Below the pieces are notes generated by a model. It ran no database searches. It saw only the letters and a program-made list of their open reading frames with translations, and was not told where the DNA came from. This document shows, one piece after another, positions 1 through 9,164 of a DNA stretch of 9,164 bases. The stretch lies in contig PMJE01000147.1 of NCBI GenBank assembly GCA_003157315.1, positions 1-9,164 of the forward strand, given 5' to 3'. This DNA comes from Myxococcales bacterium. Lineage in GTDB: Bacteria > Myxococcota > Polyangia > Fen-1088. The translations under genes and the position numbers were made by a program. Numbering within the stretch: position 1 is the stretch's first letter; every line of letters begins with the position of its first letter.

Positions 1-94
1 ATAGGGATAGTTTGGGCGCGTAGGTGGGTGTGGTTTGCAGAAGACGGCGCTTGTTCCTATGCTCCGCGAACAGTGCGGGCAAGTGGAGCTGCCT

Positions 95-1663
95 CTACTG
101 GTGCGGTAGGTACCACGGATCTGCATCGTAGGTATCGACAGCCGTGCCTGAGCTGTCTTGATAGATCACCACAAAGGACAAGTCGCCGTGGGACGTGACC
201 GTCGGCTCGCCAACCCCCATAGTCGTGCCAGCCGAAACAACGAGAGTCGGGGCGTCCCAACTGTTCCAATCGCCGGGCGTATCCTGCGGGGCTCGATAAA
301 TGGCTTGCTTGAAATCGGCTGGGTTCGCAGCGCTGAAGTACAGCCACCAAACCGAGCCGTCATTATATAGGTGCGGCTGCTGGGCAGGCCCACCGAGGTT
401 CGTGATGGCTGTGTCGTTGACAGTCGTGGCTTCGGTTGGGGACGACCAGGACACGCCATTGTCGGCGCTGGTCGAGTAGAACACGTGCTTGCCGTCCGTC
501 ACTCCTTGCAGGTTCTGGCTGTCGAAAAACAATACCAGGACGCCGCCCACGAGCTCGATGTGGGGATTGTCAAACTCTGTCCCGGCGGTGTTGAGCGGCG
601 ACGGCAGGGCCATGCCTGTGGGGCTGGGGCTCAATCCGACGTTTTGCAGCAGAGCGATCTTGGGACCGCCTGGAGCGAGAGAATCGTCTGTGTACACCAC
701 CCGGTCATACCCCGTATGTGCTGTGTTCAGGTCTCCTTGAAATGCGCCCAGATCGTAGCCTGTCGCCATGTGGAGGTTGGACAGGCACCAACTAGTGAAC
801 GGGACGCTGGTGGCACTGCGCTGAGCGATGGCCACGTCGGCGTGAAGCCAGGGATTGGGCGGTGAAATGTTGGTCGGAAACACCTGTCCCGCCAGCGTGG
901 GTCCCCGTCGGTACAGGTAGAACAGAGTAGGCGATACACCGTCGAGTACGGCTTTGAGCAAGTCCATCGGAATGTAGGTTGCGTAAAGATTCAGCCCGTC
1001 GCGACTGATGTAAATGCCGTCTTCCCACGCCAGGGTGGACAGGGGTTGCGCGTAGGGCGTTGTGAACTCCCCGGGGAGCTCATTGACTGGCGCTTGCTTG
1101 GCTTTGGCGGCCGCCCAGCTGGAAGCTCCCGCCGTGGATGCCGTAATCACAGTCGGTCCCAGGCACGCCGAGCAACTCGCGGTCGCGCCTCCTTCAACTC
1201 CGGTGCAGGTCCAGATCCAGGGATCCGAGCCGCTCACTTGGGAAGGCGTCCCCGCGGCGCACAATCCACTCGTCGGCGCACTCGATTCGGCCACGCCGTA
1301 CGACAATCCGCAAACGCCGTCGACAGCGCTGGCTGGGGCCGAGCAAGTTGCCGTGGTGCCTCCGCCGCTGCCGGCGCAACTTGACATACCACCCGACGGG
1401 TAGCCGCCTCTCCCGCTGCTGCCGGTCGTCGTGCTGTTGCCGCCCGTTGCATTTCCACCTGAGTTGCTTGCACCCGCCCCACTGCTGCCGCCCGTGGCAC
1501 TGCCGTTCACTCCACCGCCGGCGAGTGCTCCGCCTTTCCCGCCGCCACCGCCTGAATTCCCCTTTTGTTCCGTGCCGCTCGACGAGCGGCACGCCACACC
1601 AAAGCTCGCAAGCAAAGTAGCTGAGAGAAGGATGGTGAACTTGCCCGAAAGACTGTGTCGCAT
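95..1663 (-). CDS. Secreted lipoprotein with Gly/Ser-rich linker, Cys module and Asp-box beta-propeller-like domain
   Basis: Predicted 522-residue lipoprotein, probably displayed on the outer membrane or cell surface; its ligand or substrate is unknown. Seen: residues 1-24 form a signal peptide (charged start MRHSLSGK, then a hydrophobic stretch) ending in GVAC, with Cys25 as the likely lipid-modified residue. Arg26 follows, so there is no Asp retention signal. Residues 29-95 are almost entirely Gly, Ser, Ala, Asn and Thr, a flexible linker common in myxobacterial lipoproteins. Residues 96-167 hold a cysteine-rich module. Residues ~195-522 look like a beta-propeller, with a good Asp-box (SADNGVSW, 399-406) and segments such as FDNPHIELVGGVLVLFFDS and WWLYFSA that resemble sialidase or GH43-like blades. 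I chose the ATG at 1663 because it places the signal peptide at the N-terminus. The frame is open upstream to 1891, but that would bury the signal peptide, and no strong ribosome binding site precedes 1663. Enzymatic activity cannot be asserted; a glycan-binding or glycosidase-like role is inference only. Confidence 0.85.
   Translation of the reverse strand: MRHSLSGKFTILLSATLLASFGVACRSSSGTEQKGNSGGGGGKGGALAGGGVNGSATGGSSGAGASNSGGNATGGNSTTTGSSGRGGYPSGGMSSCAGSGGGTTATCSAPASAVDGVCGLSYGVAESSAPTSGLCAAGTPSQVSGSDPWIWTCTGVEGGATASCSACLGPTVITASTAGASSWAAAKAKQAPVNELPGEFTTPYAQPLSTLAWEDGIYISRDGLNLYATYIPMDLLKAVLDGVSPTLFYLYRRGPTLAGQVFPTNISPPNPWLHADVAIAQRSATSVPFTSWCLSNLHMATGYDLGAFQGDLNTAHTGYDRVVYTDDSLAPGGPKIALLQNVGLSPSPTGMALPSPLNTAGTEFDNPHIELVGGVLVLFFDSQNLQGVTDGKHVFYSTSADNGVSWSSPTEATTVNDTAITNLGGPAQQPHLYNDGSVWWLYFSAANPADFKQAIYRAPQDTPGDWNSWDAPTLVVSAGTTMGVGEPTVTSHGDLSFVVIYQDSSGTAVDTYDADPWYLPHQ
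1166..1384 (-). repeat. 57-residue cysteine module in the lipoprotein: one truncated and one complete copy
   Basis: Within the lipoprotein, residues 96-109 (C-AGSGGGTTAT-C-SA) match the end of the next module, residues 153-166 (C-TGVEGGATAS-C-SA), with the same C-x10-C spacing and an offset of 57 residues. The complete copy runs from about residue 110 to 166 and carries the features DGVCG, SSAP, LCAAGT and PWIWTC. This pattern is familiar from extracellular proteins of many Gram-negative bacteria, where it often occurs in tandem; its function is not known to me. The first copy keeps only its end and fuses directly to the Gly-rich linker. The cysteines (96, 107, 118, 135, 153, 164, 167) probably form disulfides outside the cytoplasm, which is inference. 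Confidence 0.6.
1349..1579 (-). repeat. Low-complexity Gly/Ser/Asn/Thr-rich linker coding region
   Basis: Lipoprotein residues 29-105 are dominated by GG, GGS, GGN and STTT-type runs with almost no hydrophobic residues. At DNA level this is a run of GGN, GCN, AAC and AGC codons on the minus strand. It probably acts as an extended tether holding the cysteine module and propeller away from the membrane. Its far end overlaps the truncated cysteine module copy. Such tracts change length easily by slippage, so its length may differ between strains. Confidence 0.7.
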
Positions 1664-1716
1664 GGGACTGAAGCTTGGGGGGGGTGTCTGCTGTGGATAC
1701 GAAGGGTGAAGGTGCC

Positions 1717-1722
1717 ATTCTA
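1717..1722 (-). promoter_or_regulatory. Possible -10 element for the lipoprotein gene
   Basis: The minus strand reads TAGAAT here, a 5/6 match to the sigma70 -10 box, which would give a leader of roughly 45-50 nt before the ATG at 1663. I find no acceptable -35 hexamer 16-18 bp upstream, so this is a weak candidate. The rest of the 280-bp gap between tRNA and lipoprotein gene holds a 6-bp stem with 6-nt loop (1747-1764) and the 9-bp inverted repeat at 1902-1924, and nothing else I can support. Confidence 0.2.
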
Positions 1723-1901
1723 GGCTATCTTCGCCCGCTTGGCCGCTGCTGGCCCTGACCAGCAACCCGTTCGTTTCTCCAATCATCCAATCTCCCCATC
1801 TCTTTGTTCCCGCCTCCTGTCTTCTTAGAGGGCAAGAACCAAGGGGTCTGACCTTGTACGCGGGAGAAGGAGAACACCTGGGTTCCCGCAATTTCCGACC
1901 G

Positions 1902-1924
1902 TCGCCTTATCCTATATAAGGCGA
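1902..1924 (-). terminator. Perfect 9-bp inverted repeat downstream of tRNA-Leu, possible terminator hairpin
   Basis: Positions 1902-1910 (TCGCCTTAT) and 1916-1924 (ATAAGGCGA) are exact reverse complements separated by 5 nt. In the direction of tRNA transcription the hairpin begins 19 nt past the tRNA 3' end, the right place for a terminator. No T-run follows it, so it is not a classical intrinsic terminator. It could instead limit 3' processing or serve as a protein-binding palindrome upstream of the lipoprotein gene. The symmetry is certain; the function is inference. Confidence 0.4.
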
Positions 1925-1943
1925 GGTCTCAAATCTGCGGGAG

Positions 1944-2027
1944 TGCGAGGAGGGGGACTTGAACCCCCATGGCTGTTAACCGCTAGCACCTCAAGCTAGT
2001 GCGTCTACCAAGTTCCGCCATCCTCGC
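1944..2027 (-). tRNA. tRNA-Leu (anticodon GAG)
   Basis: An 84-nt class II tRNA folds completely by eye on the minus strand. The acceptor stem GCGAGGA pairs with TCCTCGC (2021-2027 with 1945-1951), and the discriminator base A is at 1944. The D-arm has a GCG/CGC stem and GG in its loop. The anticodon stem CTAGC/GCTAG encloses the loop TTGAGGT, placing anticodon GAG at 1990-1992, which reads CTC leucine codons. The long variable arm (GGTTAACAGCC region) is typical of tRNA-Leu. The T-arm GGGGG-TTCAAGT-CCCCC is perfect. The 3' CCA is not encoded (the bases after the discriminator read CTC), so it must be added by tRNA nucleotidyltransferase. Confidence 0.97.
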
Positions 2028-2046
2028 GGGAAGGCCAGAGTGGCAG

Positions 2047-2075
2047 CTTATAGTAAGGCCCAGGGTCGGTGTCAA
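2047..2075 (-). promoter_or_regulatory. Sigma70-type promoter of tRNA-Leu
   Basis: On the minus strand TTGACA (2075-2070, 6/6 to the -35 consensus) is followed by exactly 17 bp and then TATAAG (2052-2047, 5/6 to the -10 consensus). Transcription would start near 2040, giving a short leader of about 13 nt before the mature tRNA 5' end at 2027. The whole promoter sits in the 66-bp gap after the stop codon of the large TPR gene, so the tRNA does not depend on readthrough from it. Unusually strong for a GC-rich genome, as expected for a tRNA gene. Confidence 0.85.
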
Positions 2076-2093
2076 TTCAATGCCAGTATGGGG

Positions 2094-2879
2094 TTACGCC
2101 GCCGGACGCCCCAGGCCGAGCAGATCGCGCGCATCAAGATACGCGTCGCTGACGGCAAAGCGAAGCAGATCGCGCAACGGGCCGGGCCGGCCGGCGTGGT
2201 CGCGCAGGGTTTCTGCATCCGGCGCGTCTGCGACTCCCGGGATCGATTCGCGCCCAACCATGCGGACCGCCGTGCTGGCGACACCGCACATGAGCAACCC
2301 AGCGCGGTTGCCTGCTTCGCGCGCCCCTTCCCGCCAACGCATCGGATCGAGGGCCACCTCGGCGTGCTCTTGAAACAGCTCGCCCACCCGCTTGGCGATC
2401 TTGTAGGGCAGCGCCTTCTTCAACTTGGCTGCCTGCTCCGCCGCGGCGTCCTCGCTGCCGGCACGGAAACGCGCATGCTTGGGGTGGAAGGCCTTGAGCA
2501 CGCCCATGAACAAGGTGTCGAACTCCGGTGCCGGCAACGTCGCAGCCAGCAGATACTCGGGCCGGCTGAGCTCGAGGGCGCGGCCGATACGGAAACGCAG
2601 CTCGCCGACTGCGGCTTCGCCGGCCAAGCGCGGACCCACCACGATCGCCGGCGGTGCCACGCCAACCAGGCTCATCCCATCGAAGTCCGCGTCCGGCCGC
2701 AGGTAGAGACTGGTGCGCCGGTTGCCCAGGGCCTTGCCTGCCTGCCCCCAGATCTGGGCTATGGCCAGGTCCGCCACCGTCGACACCTTGTCCTTGGCGG
2801 TAACGCCGAAGCTGTCCAGGTTGGCCTGCGAAAGTCCGGGCGCCCCTTCCCACACGGCCGCTAGCACCTCGGCCATGAA
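2094..2879 (-). other. C-terminal domain: probable catalytically dead M48-type peptidase fold
   Basis: Residues ~2095-2355 are not TPR. Two blocks resemble the M48 family. Block 1 (2151-2206) has SLYLRP, then a strand PPAIVVGPRLA, then GELRFRIGRALELSRPEYLL, where active members typically have a strand followed by ELRFVLGHELGHIKSGH. Block 2 (2275-2300) has REAGNRAGLLMCG where active members have ExSADRAGLLxCx. Aligned this way, the HExxH residues become Arg2194, Ala2195 and Leu2198, and the downstream glutamate ligand aligns with Arg2281. The resemblance is from my memory of the family, not a search. If correct, the domain keeps the fold but cannot bind catalytic zinc. Confidence 0.6.
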
Positions 2880-5800
2880 ATGCACGTCGGGCAGCGGATT
2901 CAGATACTTGCCGCGCCCTCCGTCCTCCAGAGTTCCCGCATAGGGATCGTCGGGCTTGCGTTCGGGCGCCGGGTTCTGCGCCAAGAAGTCCCTATCATCG
3001 TCGGTCGCCAAGCGCAGCACGTCCAACACCTCGAGCAGGGAACGCGCCCGATCGACATGCCCGAGACGGATGTGATCCGCCGCCAGAGCGTGCAAGGATT
3101 CCTCACGTGCCGGATCGAAGACCAGAATGGCCTTGTGGTTCTCGATGGCCATCTCTCGGTGCTCGGGACGGGCACCATAGATCTCGGCCAGAGCTAGGCG
3201 TGCCTCCACCCGATTGGGGTCGGCTGTGATCGCTGCCTGCAAGGCGCCCACCGCGGCTGCCGGATCGGTAGGTACCAGCAGAGCACCCAGCTTCGCCCAT
3301 AGCTCGGCACGCCGGCGCGCCAGCTCCGCGTCCGCCGCCGGCTCGGCCAGTTGGGGCAAGACTCGTTTCAGGGTTTCGCCCACATCAGCCCCGCGGCCGG
3401 CTCGCTCATACGCCTCGCACAGGGTCCACAGGGCAGTCTCGTCTGTGGCATCGTCGGTGAGCACCTGCTCAAGCAAGTCCGCCGCCCTGTCGAAGTTGCC
3501 TTGCTCCATCTCGAACCCGGCGATTTCGCGTCGGCGCGCGGCTCGCTCCTTGGGCTCAACCACTATGTCGGCGATCCGGCGCGCAGTTTCGATGGCAGCA
3601 CGCAGGGCACCCTCTGACCGCTGGGTAGCCATCGTCTTCTCCAGCAGGGGCACCTGGTCTGGGCTGTCGCCCTCAACCCGGGCAACCGCTTCTTCGTAGG
3701 CTTCGCGGGCTGCCCCGGTATTGCCCAGGGCCAGGTGTAGATCGCCGATCTGCTCGTACAGCCTGCACTGCTCGACCGGATCGCCACAGGACTCGGCCAC
3801 CTGGCGCAGCGATCGCGCCGCTTCCAGCTTGTCTCCCCGTTCAATCGCCAGATCGGCCAGCGCGCGCAGCGTCTGCGGATGGCTGGGAGAAAGGCGCACG
3901 GCCGCCGCGTGCAGAGCCGCCGCGCGCTCAGGCCGTTTCTGTCGCAGCTCAGCCATCGCCCCGTGGGCCAGGGCCAGCGCCACTTCCTCAGGGTAGTTGG
4001 GCGCTGCTGCGTGATCCGCGATCCCCTCGAAATGGGTGGCCGCATCCCGCCAGCGTCGCGCCTGAAAGCGATTTTCGCCGAGTGCAATGCGCAGCATGAG
4101 TTGCCCGGGCAGAGCCTTGTCCGCCTCCACCAGTTGCCGGTAGCCTTCGTCAAGGCGCCCCAGCTTCTCGTAGACCTCGCCCAGCCGGTGATAGAGCTTG
4201 GCGGTCTGCTCGGGCTGGCCGCGCATGCGCCGAAGCGCCTCGTTCAATCTGCGCTCTGCCCGATCCCACTGCTCTTCGCGGTACAGGATGTCGGCCATGG
4301 TGACCACGGCGGGCAGATGATTGGGGTCAAGATCCAGCGCCTCGTCGAGCCGGCGTTCGGCCTCGGCAAGACCGTCGGTTTTCTCACATAACGCGCGGGC
4401 GAGATTGGTCAGCACCGCGGCTTTGGCTGAAGGCGAGTCGCACAGGCTGAGCTGGCGCTCGTACAGTTCCTTGGCCTCGTCGATGCGGCCCTCGCCTGCC
4501 AACATGGCAGCCAGCGCTGCCAGCACCTCGGGATTCGAAGGATGGAGGTTGACCGCTTTTTCGAAGCAAGCCCGCGCCTTGGCCGCCTGGCCGATCTGAT
4601 CGCGGAAAACCGCGCCCGCCTCCAGCAAGGCGGCCGCCTGTTCGGGCTGGCCCGCCAGCGCATCAGCCCGGCGCAAAAGCGCGGCCGCGTAGGCCTGGAA
4701 ATCGTTGCGCTTGAGGTAGAAGCGCGCCAGTGCGGCGAGCACCGCCGGATCCTCTGGCTGCAGCGCCAGTGCCGCCTCGATGGCTTGCTGGGCTCCCTTG
4801 GGGTCCGAGAGGTCATCGGACTTGAGCTGAGCCATCTCGAGGTCAAGGGCGGCAATCAATTTGGGATCGTTGCCAGCCTTGCTCAGCACCTCGATGCGCT
4901 GCTCGAGGATACGCAGGGCCTCATGCGCCAGGCCCGCACTGCGCAGATTGCGCAACAGCGCGGCCGCGGTCCGCTCGTCGGAAAGCGCATCGGCGCCCAG
5001 GCTGCGCAGACAAGCCGCCGCGGCCTCCGGGTTGCCCAACTTCTCTTCCAGAATGCGCGCGCGCCTCCACACCAGTTCGTTCTTCTCCGTCCCCTCCGAG
5101 ATCTCCGAGCGTCGGCGCAGCACCTCGACCAGGGCTTCGAAGCGCCCCAATGCCTGCTGCAAACGGTCCAGCGCTGCCAGCGCCTCGGCGTCCCGTGGCG
5201 CTCGTCTCAGGATGTCTTCGTACATGTCCACTGCCCGCGCGGGCAGCGACAGCTCACGTTCGTATATCTCGGCCAAGCGCCAGCGCGCCTCGCGCGCGTC
5301 TTCTCCCTCTCCGGTCAATTCCAACTCGCGCTGCAGCGCTGCCGCTGCCTTTTGCGCCATACCCACCCGACCGTAGAGCCGCGCCAGCGCCGCGTAGCCG
5401 GCGCGCGCCTCGATGGCCAGCGCCGGGCTGCGTGGGTCACCCGCCGCCAGTCCACGCTCCTCCTCGTCGGTGCTCGCCACGAACCGTTCGAGCGTGTCCA
5501 CCGCTTCGTAGGGCCGTTCTAGCCGTTTTTCGTAGAGCTCGGCCAGTTCGAAGGCGCGGCTGCGCGCCTCGGCGCCTTCCAGGCGTCCACCCGGCACCGT
5601 GATGCGACGTTCTAGTACCTGGGCCAACTCGGCCCAGCTCTCTCGAGTTCGGTGCATCTGCTCAAGCCGATCGAGCGCAACGGGATTGTCGGTCTCCAGC
5701 ACGATGACGCTGCGGTAGCGCTCTTCAGCCAAAGCGACCTGTCCCAGCTCTTCGCGAATCTGTCCAACCCGCAGGTGCAGCGCGATCGCCTCTGGGCGGG

Positions 5801-8800
5801 CCGCCCGCTCTGCCGCACGCAGGTAGATATCGCAGACGTGATCCCATCCGTCCCCCTCGCGCGCTAAGCGCTCCATCTCGCCGCGCACTGACTCGTCCGA
5901 GGTCTGCAGGACGAAAGCCCGCTCCAGCGTCGCCAACGCCAGGTCATTGTTGTGGGCGCCCCGCTCCCAAATCTCGGCTTGTTTCTTCAAGTAGCGATGT
6001 CGGCTAATCAGATCGGCTGGCAACAACTCGTAGGCCTGCACCCATTCCTGCCAGGGCGTCTCGAACCTGGCCACGGCTGCTGAGCCGCTCGCGGCGGGCG
6101 GCTCGGGCAGGTCCGCCTGGTCAACGATATCCAACTCGCCAATATCGATCTCACCCGTCACCTCGTCGAATTCCAGCGCCGGGACGGCCGCCCCTACCAA
6201 CACGGGCGAAGGGGTCAACAGGTCAACATCGGCGCTCTCGACCTCGGGCGCGGCCGCCTCGGGTTCCGCGTGCAGGGCCGCGGAAGCCTCCGCTTGTGCC
6301 GCTTCCTCATAGCGGCCAATCAGAAAGGCCAGCCGCCACAAGTTGGCCGCAATGTCTTCGTCCTCTGGTGCCAGCCGGAAGGCATTCAGGTAGGCGCGGA
6401 AGGCGCGCACCCGATCCTTGACCTTGTCTTCGACCAAGGCGGCTGCCCGCCGTACCACACTCACCTTCTCCGCCGTGGTGGCGGCCAGCGTGAAGGCTTG
6501 CCCCTCGACCGCCAGCGCATCCTCCCAGCGCCCGGTGACCTCAGCCAGACGCAAGATTTCCAGCCGAGCGGACTCGTTGCCGGGAGAAACCGCGAACGCG
6601 CGCAACAACTCGTCAAGCGCACCCGAGGGATCGCCCATCTCGGTTTCGCGCACGCCTGCGCGCAGGCAGAGCAGGGAAAAACGCTCCTGGGGCGCGGGAC
6701 GGCCGCGCGCCACTTGCGCGTAGACATCGAGCAGCCCTTGCCAGTCCTTGGTTGTCCGCGCTAGCCGTTCCAGCTCGGGAAGCAGGATCTCCGCCGCCGG
6801 ATCGTGGGACAGCGCCTCGCGCAGCACGGTGAAGGCGCGCGCCGGTTGCTGCAGCCGGCTCTCGCACAACCCGGCCACCTTCATCGCCACCTGTACCTGC
6901 GCGAGCGGATCAGGCGAGCGGGCACCCTCGCCCGCGTAGACCTTGATGAGGTCCTCCCACAACCCGTGGGCCTCGGCGGTCGCCTCCAAGCGGCCCAACG
7001 TCTCCTCGTCGGGCTTCTCCACGTAGGCGCGCCGGAAGAGCTCGAAGGCCCGGCGTGGCTCGCCGAGCATGGTTTCGGCCGCCCCAGCCATCTCGAAGAG
7101 CAGCCGGCGCCGTTGCGTGGCGTCCTCGGTCTTGCGCAGAACCTTCTCCGCGGTGGCGATGAACGCCTCGCCATCCTTGGTTTCGGCGTAAAGCGACGCC
7201 AGAGCGGCCAGGGCATCCGACTGCTCAGGCTCGATCTCGACCACTCGTTCGAAGGCGCCAATCGCCTTCTTGGCGTCCTGCAAGCGGTCGCGGTACAGGC
7301 ATCCGATCTCCAGCGCCCGCTCGACTCGCTCTTTGGGATCGGTGGCGAAGCTGAGCTGCCGTTCCGCCACGCTCGCCACGCGCGGCCAATCGTTGCCAGC
7401 CTCGGCCACTCGACGCAGGGCCTGGTGTGCCTCCACGCTCGTGGGATCGAGATCGCTGATGATGTGCTCCAGCGCGCGGATCGCCTCGGCCGAATCGTTC
7501 AGCTTCTCGACCAGCAGGTTGGCGCGCTGGAGCGCCAGGGGAACCGCCTCGGCGGGATTGCTCAGCAGTGCAATACGCCGGGCCAGCAGGTCAGCCAACC
7601 CACTCCAGTCAGACTGCGCCGACGCGATGGCGGACAGCGCCTCCAATCCCTCGCGATCGGTGGGCAGGATCTTGAGCAGGTCCTGCCACGCTTGTTGCGC
7701 GCGCGGAATCTGCTTGAGTCCATCACTGGCGAGGCGAGCTAGCCGCCGCAGCAACTCCGCCTGGGCCGACGGATCGGTGGCCAGAGCAGTGATCTGCATG
7801 TCCAGGGTGCGCGCCAGTTCATCGAGCCGCCCGGTCTTTTCGTAGCCGACCAGCAGCGCCTGCAGGGCCTGCTGGTCCCCGGGAACATGCTTCAGCACAT
7901 TCTCCCAGTACGGGATGGCCCGGTCGAAGTCGTCGAGCTGGTTCTGCAAGACATCAGCAATCCGACGGACCAGACCCAGCTTCTCCTCCCCAGCCGCAGC
8001 GTAGCGGAGGTGGTACTCCAGCAGCTTGATCAGCTTGGGCTTGTCGTTCGTCTGCTCGAAGATGGCTTCCAGGCGCACAAGTGCGTCCCGGTCGCCAGGT
8101 AGGAGCTTGAGAATCTGCGCCGCAGCCCACGAGGCGGACGCCAGATCGGTCAACCGCTCCCCGTAAAGCCCGAGCAACCGTCGCAGCAGATTGATTCTTT
8201 CCGCGTCGACGGTGGCCAGCTCGACCTGGCTGCGCAGGAGGGTGGCAAGCTCAGCCCACTGCTCAGATCGCTCGTACGCGTCCACCACCGCGCGTAGCGC
8301 GACCACGTCCTTGGGATCGAGCGTGAGGACTTCGCGGTAGGCCGCCGCGGCGCGATCGGGCGCGTCGAGCTTGTCAAGGTACAGCCGGGCCAAGCGACGC
8401 AGAATCTCCGCCCGGGCGCTGGGCTCGCTGGCGGCCGCTTCCTCGACCAGCACCTTGGCCATCTCCTCCCAGCGGCCGGCCTTCTGCAGGATGCGCTTGC
8501 AAGCCTCGCGCGCTCGCTGGTAACTGGGGTCCAGCTCGGCCATCTGCCGCCACACCGCCAGGGCGCGATCGACGTCGCCCAGCTTGGTCTCGGCGATGAC
8601 CGCCACCTCTTCCCAGCGAGGCAAGAGATCGGAAACCGCGGCGCCGGTCGAGCGCTCGTGGTTGAGCGCGAATTCCAGCACATCGGCCAGTTCGCGCCAG
8701 GCACCGCGCTGGCGAAAATGCTCGGCATAGGCGTGCAGCGCTTCGGGGTCACTTGGCCTGGCTTGCAGTATGGCGTGCAGATACACCGCAGCCTGCTCGC

Positions 8801-9164
8801 GGTCACCCAGCCGGTCGCGGTACAGCGACGCCAGCTCGCGCTGCAGGTTGAGACGAAACTCCGGGTCCGTCGCCTTCTCGAGCTGCCGCTCGCGCAGCTC
8901 GGCCAGCTTGCCGTAGTCTTGGCGACCCAGGTAAAGCGCGGCTAGCTCTTGCGACGCGGTCCCACCCGGTGGCTCAAGCGCCACGATTTCCTGGTAGATG
9001 CGCATTGCCTCGGCAACGTCGTTGAGCGAGGTGCGAGCCAGTTGCGCCCGCTTGAACAACACCTCGATCTTCTCTTGGTCGGTGGCCGCCGTCGCCACAC
9101 GCTCGCGCAGAAAGCGGTCCAGATCAGGCAAGCGGCCGGCGTTGGTCAGCACGCGCTCCATGAG
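2094..9164 (-). CDS. Giant tetratricopeptide-repeat protein with C-terminal pseudo-M48 peptidase domain (5' end outside window)
   Basis: Open through the window edge: an ATG lies at 9161, but the frame continues to 9164 and the array begins mid-unit, so the true start lies outside. Residues are counted from that ATG (2,355 to the stop). Seen: residues ~1-955 are a TPR array with a ~72-residue period, such as LARLYLDKLDAPDRAAAAY followed by YERSEQWAELATLL. Residues ~956-1030 are an acidic Ala/Pro-rich spacer. Residues ~1036-2053 are a second TPR array, closer to canonical 34-residue repeats in its later part. Residues ~2095-2355 form a globular domain resembling M48 peptidases but lacking the zinc ligands. 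TPR arrays build superhelical protein-binding scaffolds, so a large assembly platform is likely; the partner is unknown. Myxobacteria carry comparably large TPR proteins in gliding motility (AgmK/GltI class), a possible relation I cannot test. Without the N-terminus, secretion or membrane anchoring cannot be judged. No frameshift or internal stop is seen. Confidence 0.9.
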   Translation of the reverse strand, partial: LMERVLTNAGRLPDLDRFLRERVATAATDQEKIEVLFKRAQLARTSLNDVAEAMRIYQEIVALEPPGGTASQELAALYLGRQDYGKLAELRERQLEKATDPEFRLNLQRELASLYRDRLGDREQAAVYLHAILQARPSDPEALHAYAEHFRQRGAWRELADVLEFALNHERSTGAAVSDLLPRWEEVAVIAETKLGDVDRALAVWRQMAELDPSYQRAREACKRILQKAGRWEEMAKVLVEEAAASEPSARAEILRRLARLYLDKLDAPDRAAAAYREVLTLDPKDVVALRAVVDAYERSEQWAELATLLRSQVELATVDAERINLLRRLLGLYGERLTDLASASWAAAQILKLLPGDRDALVRLEAIFEQTNDKPKLIKLLEYHLRYAAAGEEKLGLVRRIADVLQNQLDDFDRAIPYWENVLKHVPGDQQALQALLVGYEKTGRLDELARTLDMQITALATDPSAQAELLRRLARLASDGLKQIPRAQQAWQDLLKILPTDREGLEALSAIASAQSDWSGLADLLARRIALLSNPAEAVPLALQRANLLVEKLNDSAEAIRALEHIISDLDPTSVEAHQALRRVAEAGNDWPRVASVAERQLSFATDPKERVERALEIGCLYRDRLQDAKKAIGAFERVVEIEPEQSDALAALASLYAETKDGEAFIATAEKVLRKTEDATQRRRLLFEMAGAAETMLGEPRRAFELFRRAYVEKPDEETLGRLEATAEAHGLWEDLIKVYAGEGARSPDPLAQVQVAMKVAGLCESRLQQPARAFTVLREALSHDPAAEILLPELERLARTTKDWQGLLDVYAQVARGRPAPQERFSLLCLRAGVRETEMGDPSGALDELLRAFAVSPGNESARLEILRLAEVTGRWEDALAVEGQAFTLAATTAEKVSVVRRAAALVEDKVKDRVRAFRAYLNAFRLAPEDEDIAANLWRLAFLIGRYEEAAQAEASAALHAEPEAAAPEVESADVDLLTPSPVLVGAAVPALEFDEVTGEIDIGELDIVDQADLPEPPAASGSAAVARFETPWQEWVQAYELLPADLISRHRYLKKQAEIWERGAHNNDLALATLERAFVLQTSDESVRGEMERLAREGDGWDHVCDIYLRAAERAARPEAIALHLRVGQIREELGQVALAEERYRSVIVLETDNPVALDRLEQMHRTRESWAELAQVLERRITVPGGRLEGAEARSRAFELAELYEKRLERPYEAVDTLERFVASTDEEERGLAAGDPRSPALAIEARAGYAALARLYGRVGMAQKAAAALQRELELTGEGEDAREARWRLAEIYERELSLPARAVDMYEDILRRAPRDAEALAALDRLQQALGRFEALVEVLRRRSEISEGTEKNELVWRRARILEEKLGNPEAAAACLRSLGADALSDERTAAALLRNLRSAGLAHEALRILEQRIEVLSKAGNDPKLIAALDLEMAQLKSDDLSDPKGAQQAIEAALALQPEDPAVLAALARFYLKRNDFQAYAAALLRRADALAGQPEQAAALLEAGAVFRDQIGQAAKARACFEKAVNLHPSNPEVLAALAAMLAGEGRIDEAKELYERQLSLCDSPSAKAAVLTNLARALCEKTDGLAEAERRLDEALDLDPNHLPAVVTMADILYREEQWDRAERRLNEALRRMRGQPEQTAKLYHRLGEVYEKLGRLDEGYRQLVEADKALPGQLMLRIALGENRFQARRWRDAATHFEGIADHAAAPNYPEEVALALAHGAMAELRQKRPERAAALHAAAVRLSPSHPQTLRALADLAIERGDKLEAARSLRQVAESCGDPVEQCRLYEQIGDLHLALGNTGAAREAYEEAVARVEGDSPDQVPLLEKTMATQRSEGALRAAIETARRIADIVVEPKERAARRREIAGFEMEQGNFDRAADLLEQVLTDDATDETALWTLCEAYERAGRGADVGETLKRVLPQLAEPAADAELARRRAELWAKLGALLVPTDPAAAVGALQAAITADPNRVEARLALAEIYGARPEHREMAIENHKAILVFDPAREESLHALAADHIRLGHVDRARSLLEVLDVLRLATDDDRDFLAQNPAPERKPDDPYAGTLEDGGRGKYLNPLPDVHFMAEVLAAVWEGAPGLSQANLDSFGVTAKDKVSTVADLAIAQIWGQAGKALGNRRTSLYLRPDADFDGMSLVGVAPPAIVVGPRLAGEAAVGELRFRIGRALELSRPEYLLAATLPAPEFDTLFMGVLKAFHPKHARFRAGSEDAAAEQAAKLKKALPYKIAKRVGELFQEHAEVALDPMRWREGAREAGNRAGLLMCGVASTAVRMVGRESIPGVADAPDAETLRDHAGRPGPLRDLLRFAVSDAYLDARDLLGLGRPAA
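3003..6056 (-). repeat. TPR array II
   Basis: Residues ~1036-2053. The ~72-residue spacing of anchors continues less evenly: 1106, 1176, 1268, 1341, 1411, 1488, 1560, 1632, 1704, 1778, ~1852, 1924. From about residue 1450 onward the repeats look like textbook TPRs, for example ARACFEKAVNLHPSNPEVL and AERRLDEALDLDPNHLPAV. The 1176-1268 unit is about 20 residues longer because of an inserted acidic loop near residues 1230-1250 (STDEEERGLAAGDPRSPAL). The final TPR-like helices (HIRLGHVDRARSLLEVL) lead into the C-terminal domain. Confidence 0.8.
6072..6296 (-). other. Acidic Ala/Pro-rich spacer between the two TPR arrays
   Basis: Residues ~956-1030 break the TPR pattern. They are rich in Ala, Glu, Asp, Pro and Val, contain the acidic core FDEVTGEIDIGELDIVD and end in PEPPAASGSAAV. 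The segment is probably disordered, and may serve as a hinge or docking segment. It begins immediately after a complete unit (anchor Tyr951), so it sits between whole repeats and does not interrupt one. Confidence 0.7.
6297..9164 (-). repeat. TPR array I, ~72-residue supra-repeat
   Basis: Aligning on the position usually occupied by Trp in motifs such as GRWEEMAKVL and DWQGLLDVYA, anchors fall at residues 11, 83, 155, 231, 302, 374, 446, 519, 592, 664, 735, 807, 879 and 951. Intervals are 70-76 residues, mostly 72. Each unit is a canonical TPR (LxRxARLYxDxLxDxxRAxxAY...LDP type) plus a longer second TPR carrying the Trp anchor. At DNA level the period is about 217 bp, but the copies are strongly diverged, so this is an old protein-level repeat and not a recent tandem duplication. 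Confidence 0.85.

Follow-up and report, generated by a model that had tools for sequence, protein, structure and literature searches.

What is the domain that closes a giant tetratricopeptide repeat (TPR) protein in Myxococcota, whose social behaviour is elaborate, and what could it do there? The protein is encoded on contig PMJE01000147.1 of a Myxococcales bacterium, of which positions 1 to 9,164 were analysed (the window). Its gene occupies 2094..9161 on the minus strand, with 2355 codons in the window. The frame is open at the window end and the 5' end lies outside. Full-length relatives have about 2650 residues (2656 in P0002), so the window protein is without about 300 N-terminal residues. 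Residues 1 to about 2044 (3030..9161, minus strand) form the TPR superhelix. The array is well above the Pfam cut-off (TPR_19 with 146.5 bits against 25, plus other TPR families). The best Pfam stretches lie within residues 4-1948, and an NCBIfam TPR model, below its cut-off, extends to 2044. The segment P0001 (residues 2070-2355; 2097..2954, minus strand) comprises a linker and the domain in question, as supported by an AlphaFold2 model, structural ranking and hhalign alignment to M48. The starts of eleven full-length relatives read MPSEREYEQ or nearly so. By eye, with no predictor run, they show no signal peptide, and the cytoplasmic-looking giant protein is taken as such for this reason.

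The original prediction, made from the DNA letters, was that the protein ends in a dead M48 metallopeptidase, with two M48 blocks in the right order. Both blocks are where it put them, at the protein end: GELRFRIGRALELSRPEY covers residues 2186-2203 and REAGNRAGLLMCG residues 2281-2293. The predicted span of 2292-2711 corresponds to residues 2151-2290, but the whole domain is larger, about 270 C-terminal residues or roughly 2097-2880 of the window. Profile comparison confirmed at the sequence level that the domain is homologous to M48 zinc peptidases. We aligned a family profile (38 paralogues from ten genomes plus four members of the window's subfamily) with a profile of M48 enzymes from the same genomes, using eight of 15 PF01435 proteins with HExxH, mostly picked for an ADR..G-like second block. 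The match extends over 181 columns (hhalign probability 98.6, E 5e-16, score 112.8). Among 100 column shuffles the top score was 18.6 and the top probability 0.6, and reversing one profile gave scores of 11.1 and 10.5, so chance is as unlikely as the original prediction supposed. The window's subfamily alone also matches the M48 profile (probability 95.8, E 7.8e-9; with 146 rows, 96.7 and 4.5e-10).

The relationship is not to M48 peptidases at large. With single sequences, seven of the 15 M48 enzymes score 46.8-66.0 and the remaining eight 9.5-19.8, which points to kinship with one M48 group. Among 95 neighbouring proteins compared in the same way, six turned out to be fragments of the domain, and none of the remaining 89 scores above 23. 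The comparison shows that the domain shares ancestry, as judged from these alignments, with soluble M48 peptidases bearing an ADR-AGLL-like second motif. In one such enzyme the two blocks read GELRFVIGHELGHALSNH and YAELSADRLGMLACGDFDTA; in the window they read GELRFRIGRALELSRPEY and GAREAGNRAGLLMCGVASTA. Pfam and NCBIfam scans of the last 286 residues matched no model. PF01435 did not rise above its gathering cut-off, with no M48 match for P0001 or any of the 42 family members at E ≤ 1. The Protein Data Bank gave no credible match for the domain by sequence, either singly or by profile. When the window's domain was compared by BLASTP with the look-alike enzyme L080, only the second block aligned (E 0.002).

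The predicted structure is consistent with this assignment. The AlphaFold2 model of P0001 has a predicted local distance difference test score (pLDDT) of 91.5 and a predicted template modelling score (pTM) of 0.91. The structural comparison proposed with the original prediction gave a divided answer. Foldseek alone found no match at E ≤ 0.001, its best being MATCAP at 5.8e-3, whereas a second-look structural aligner ranked M48 structures first, with middling Z. The last TPRs and the domain modelled together form one confident unit (pTM 0.88).

The zinc site is lost. The former active-site helix lies at residues 2185-2202 (VGELRFRIGRALELSRPE; 2556..2609, minus strand), where HExxH has become R2194-A2195-L-E-L2198. 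The second block covers residues 2273-2298 (2268..2345, minus strand), with R2281 at the Glu ligand and GNR (2284-2286) for ADR. In the hhalign columns, enzyme residues H101, E102, H105 and E140 align with R125, A126, L129 and R212 of P0001, whose numbers become those of the window protein by adding 2069. The family profile alignment thus places Arg2194, Ala2195, Leu2198 and Arg2281 exactly under the M48 His, Glu, His and Glu ligand, as had been predicted. Whether any homologue retains HExxH had been left as a question. It is found in none of the 146 subfamily rows and none of the 42 and 60 rows of the two other family sets; only true M48 enzymes at the family's edge, to which the family profile extends with E 4.5e-9 to 5.8e-7, have it.

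Other residues are strongly conserved in the subfamily. At the helix in 146 subfamily domains, position 125 is Arg in 114, Gln in 16 and His in 15, position 126 is Ala in 108 and Gly in 36, and E128 (146), L129 (137), R131 (145) and E133 (145) are nearly or fully invariant. His at position 125 (GHALEL, as in P0021, P0022, P0129 and P0131) may be a remnant or a reversion, and none of these 15 relatives has HExxH. W207, R208 and R217 are present in all 146 domains, and Asn is found at 216 in 136. R2345 near the C-terminus (2127..2129, minus strand; R276 in P0001) is invariant in 146/146 subfamily and 60/60 wider family rows. A subfamily-specific FHPKHAR motif lies at residues 2225-2231 (2469..2489, minus strand) and contains H2226 and H2229, which correspond to H157 and H160 (each in 145 of 146). 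This HPxH pair, near-fixed in the window's subfamily, shows no conservation across the 60 wider-family copies and may be a newly arisen site for a metal or a partner. M48 peptidases have an HPx4R plug, described in PMC7950410. His2322 aligns with the plug His, where the alignment is uncertain, and is His in 44 of 146.

The wider family differs at the former ligand positions. The 60 copies examined, hand-picked from the matches listed, come from 49 of 97 genomes with strong matches. In them F121 (58), W207 (52), R217 (57), S269 (58) and R276 (60) are conserved. Position 125 is Lys or Arg in 57, position 212 is Asp or Glu in 52, and both hold in 50. Since these are two former ligand sites, the pairing suggests a salt bridge instead of zinc. 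The predicted loss of the Glu ligand is therefore true of the window's protein (R2281) but not general. Within the window's subfamily the pairing has, by the row counts, drifted: position 212 is Leu in 54, His in 39, Arg in 23 and Glu in 10 of 146, and among 148 rows an acidic residue is found at 213 in 104 and at 212 in 11.

The family extends well beyond the giant proteins. Protein searches at E ≤ 0.01 found 149 long relatives and another 63 that are shorter, and the listed relatives belong to Polyangia wherever a taxon is named, with Deltaproteobacteria alone given once. Of 184 proteins, 148 with the domain complete entered the analysis; without P0168 and P0182, which by eye run partly out of frame, these give the 146-row set, and P0182 was kept in the alignment used for the contig scan and the ten-genome search. 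The contig scan yielded 22 loci from metagenome-assembled genomes labelled Myxococcales, Myxococcota, Deltaproteobacteria or Proteobacteria. The ten genomes reached through these loci contain six to ten domain matches each at E ≤ 0.1, some being two pieces of one copy. When proteins were searched with the alignment of paralogues, most of those recovered belonged to the window's subfamily. The paralogue profile matches 105 of 188 genomes of the phylum at E ≤ 1e-6, 96 of them two or more times, and these counts are lower bounds because up to 12 candidates were scored per genome. Matches are strong (best E 2e-26 or lower) in 97 of the 188. Among the matches listed, frames range from 497 to 4677 residues. 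PF01435 itself matched 107 of 112 phylum genomes, and among the matches listed none is in a frame longer than 1140 residues. By these matches, the domain is a C-terminal module found widely in the phylum and no peculiarity of a single giant protein. The silence of Pfam and NCBIfam conceals a family that about half of the sampled phylum genomes carry.

The position of the domain is constant. It ends the protein in all 125 copies examined, at most 32 residues from the stop in 60 of 60 wider-family copies and at most 36 in 65 of 65 frames of the first set, a count that includes L023-L026, repeats of L014, L013, L012 and L005. What precedes it varies. In Pfam scans of 22 paralogue frames, a few of them cut by the stretch or contig, TPRs are above cut-off in 15, only below it in two (L058, L170) and without any match in five (L028, L062, L064, L166, L175). 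Two paralogues, L051:2229-6683 (minus strand) and L056:996-5816 (plus strand), have a SIR2-like N-terminus followed by TPRs and the dead M48 domain. A receiver domain, DUF4388, TPR-like repeats and the dead M48 domain are combined in one protein in L058:1457-4831 (plus strand) and L177:70-3618 (minus strand); L058 also has a DnaJ match below cut-off. L178 has a Pkinase match just above cut-off. The constant C-terminus with varying N-termini argues for a docking or capping role and not for a decaying enzyme.

Some of these architectures invite comparison. The arrangement in L051 and L056 is reminiscent of defence proteins that deplete nicotinamide adenine dinucleotide (NAD); PADLOC gave only weak matches, with a weak ThsA match for L051. 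The short paralogues L166, L168, L172 and L175 have a common N-terminal segment resembling by eye a TerB-like helical domain, to which Pfam gave no match in L166 and L175. L028:1863-3581 and L062:2117-3724 (both minus strand) encode about 550 residues without a TPR match. By eye they seem to share an N-terminal domain (C-R-[VI]-N-[FY]) that no Pfam model covers.

The edge of the family contains partial zinc sites. Eight of the 105 genomes have weak matches only (best E 6e-12 to 4.4e-7). In three (G034, G151, G156) the match is to true M48 enzymes whose HExxH is present (HELGH; Pfam 65-81 bits). Three others (G024, G048, G083) match through stand-alone M48-like proteins of 312-384 residues without HExxH (Pfam M48 20.7-23.8 bits). 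Two of these, L186 and L187, read GRLCGH and L184 reads GQVMGA; all three keep E..[AS]DRAGL and are probably a second group of M48 pseudo-peptidases in the phylum. The remaining two genomes (G078, G137) match through C-terminal AELAH domains of proteins of about 800 residues that have no Pfam match at all. In these, L180:7-2427 and L188:58-2532 (both plus strand), the first zinc His is gone, the Glu and second His are kept, and the second motif is TADRAGL. They are possible living intermediates.

A first tree, from which bridging sequences were absent, had suggested one clean loss of the zinc site. A second tree, built with them, modifies this reading. In this unrooted tree, which excludes four family rows with long branches and one enzyme, 98 family rows lie on one side of a branch (99/99). 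The two AELAH forms branch next on the enzymes' side, and L184, L186 and L187 lie among the enzymes (87/84, not starred). Because stand-alone proteins without HExxH lie among enzymes and AELAH forms outside the family branch, the zinc site probably decayed more than once, or stepwise, in this part of M48, with the family as one old branch.

Comparison with known systems shows what is shared and what is distinct. With soluble M48 peptidases of the ADR-AGLL-like group (PF01435), the domain has in common the predicted fold, the motif order, the GELRF..G helix start and the Arg and Gly of ADRxG. Unlike them, it is without HExxH in all family rows examined, ends larger proteins and has no Pfam M48 match, and the window's protein is also without the Glu ligand. 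L184, L186 and L187 have likewise lost the first His and the Glu of HExxH. However, they keep the Glu ligand and an ADRAGL-like motif, are just over the Pfam M48 cut-off, measure 312-384 residues without a TPR match and fall among enzymes in the tree; L186 and L187 also keep the second His. BepA (YfgC) of E. coli combines an M48 fold with TPRs (PMC7950410). There an active peptidase comes first, TPRs follow and the protein is periplasmic (PMC8423444), whereas the window's protein has TPRs first, no visible signal peptide and a dead site. The reverse order expected by the original prediction is thus borne out; BepA is a structural neighbour, but by sequence the ADR-AGLL-like group is nearest. 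FtsHi proteins of Arabidopsis are also described as pseudo-proteases that come from zinc metalloproteases, but belong to another peptidase family, are AAA+ proteins and are membrane-bound. We know of no M48-derived pseudo-protease that is a widespread, multi-copy C-terminal module of TPR proteins. In line with the original prediction, no Pfam or NCBIfam model covers it, and no description of such a dead-M48 domain was found in a literature search that left subscription papers and preprints outside and drew on partial texts. Pseudo-proteases are a known kind; as far as literature and profile libraries go, neither this TPR-following M48 lineage nor its spread has been described.

How the domain acts was weighed against several alternatives. 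Homology, predicted fold, the lack of HExxH in the family rows examined and the C-terminal position all come from comparison, and we infer that the domain works without catalysis. The binding or regulatory role first proposed for it is plausible. The explanation we find best, and hold to be somewhat probable as a whole, is a dead M48 serving as a non-catalytic C-terminal cap and docking module. As a rigid unit, the domain would close off the final TPR repeats. A protein partner or a peptide would be docked by the groove that once took substrate, now remodelled, together with residues that are newly invariant (Arg217, Ser269, Arg276), joined in the window's subfamily by E128..RPEY, HPxH and WR. 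At the old zinc place of the wider family, a Lys/Arg-Asp/Glu salt bridge would probably hold the two helices together. The N-terminal part, be it TPR only, SIR2, response regulator or kinase-like, would supply input or output. A purely structural end-cap, one that stabilises the TPR superhelix and itself binds no partner, would also fit the terminal position in 125 of 125 copies and the single confident unit formed with the TPRs. Nonetheless we consider it unlikely: a cap would not need a fold of 270 residues in which many polar positions are invariant (Arg276 in 60/60 and 146/146; HPxH, WR and E128 in the subfamily), and five of the 22 scanned paralogues have the domain and no TPR match. That the M48 resemblance is convergent and the fold another one seems exceedingly improbable. 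The missing Pfam, NCBIfam and Protein Data Bank sequence matches and the weak Foldseek E-values would agree with it, but the profiles match over the whole domain with both motifs in register, which the shuffles never gave. Moreover, M48 structures come first in an unguided structural comparison, and the family profile reaches M48 enzymes recognised by Pfam. A new metal or catalytic site in the window's subfamily, with H2226-P-K-H2229 and E2197/E2202 as candidates and perhaps making it an enzyme of another sort, has in its favour that both His are in 145 of 146 domains, E128 in 146 and E133 in 145; the pair is not conserved in the wider family, and we regard this as very improbable.

The neighbouring genes hint at a link of the giant gene to pilus control. 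In G001, one strand carries in succession pilO, pilP (below the Pfam cut-off), a pilQ-like secretin, a biotin carrier, a biotin carboxylase, an 801-residue TPR protein and, last, the giant gene; two short unassigned frames are interspersed. The pilus genes were examined in G001 only, and the carboxylase label there is a reading of the sequence. SgmX presumably occupies in M. xanthus the gene position of the 801-residue TPR protein. SgmX (MXAN_5766), an effector of MglA, is described as a TPR protein of M. xanthus that activates type IV pili (PMC7668184, PMC7519303), which would suit a giant acting in pilus control as partner of its TPR neighbour. Like the giant, SgmX is a large myxobacterial TPR protein, and the 801-residue protein beside the giant gene in its clade resembles it in kind; SgmX itself is described as having 1060 residues made solely of 14 TPRs, and it has no pseudo-peptidase. 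The carboxylase, the 801-residue protein and the giant adjoin in G001-G004. However, in G005, G006, G007 and G010 the first two are together with the giant elsewhere, and in G008 and G009 all three are apart. The neighbourhood was rejected as a guide to function, since linkage to the 801-residue protein is confined to four of ten genomes, and a role in pilus control is rather doubtful. Downstream of the giant gene, 95-1891 (minus strand) encodes a protein rich in Ser and Gly that may be exported; its BNR-repeat (sialidase-like) match falls narrowly short of the Pfam cut-off.

A broader picture is put forward tentatively, as a little short of an even chance. A single dead M48 may have been multiplied in Myxococcota until it became a common module for C-terminal targeting, with a conserved Lys/Arg-Asp/Glu salt bridge for zinc. 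Giant scaffolds and SIR2, response-regulator and kinase-like proteins would then share one recognition fold with many outputs, possibly including cell suicide or defence. If the docking role is true, the domain would offer a way into the many giant scaffolds of Myxococcota that lack annotation. It would also show how a fixed charge pair can take over from a metal site, with the partial sites RLCGH and AELAH as steps to compare.
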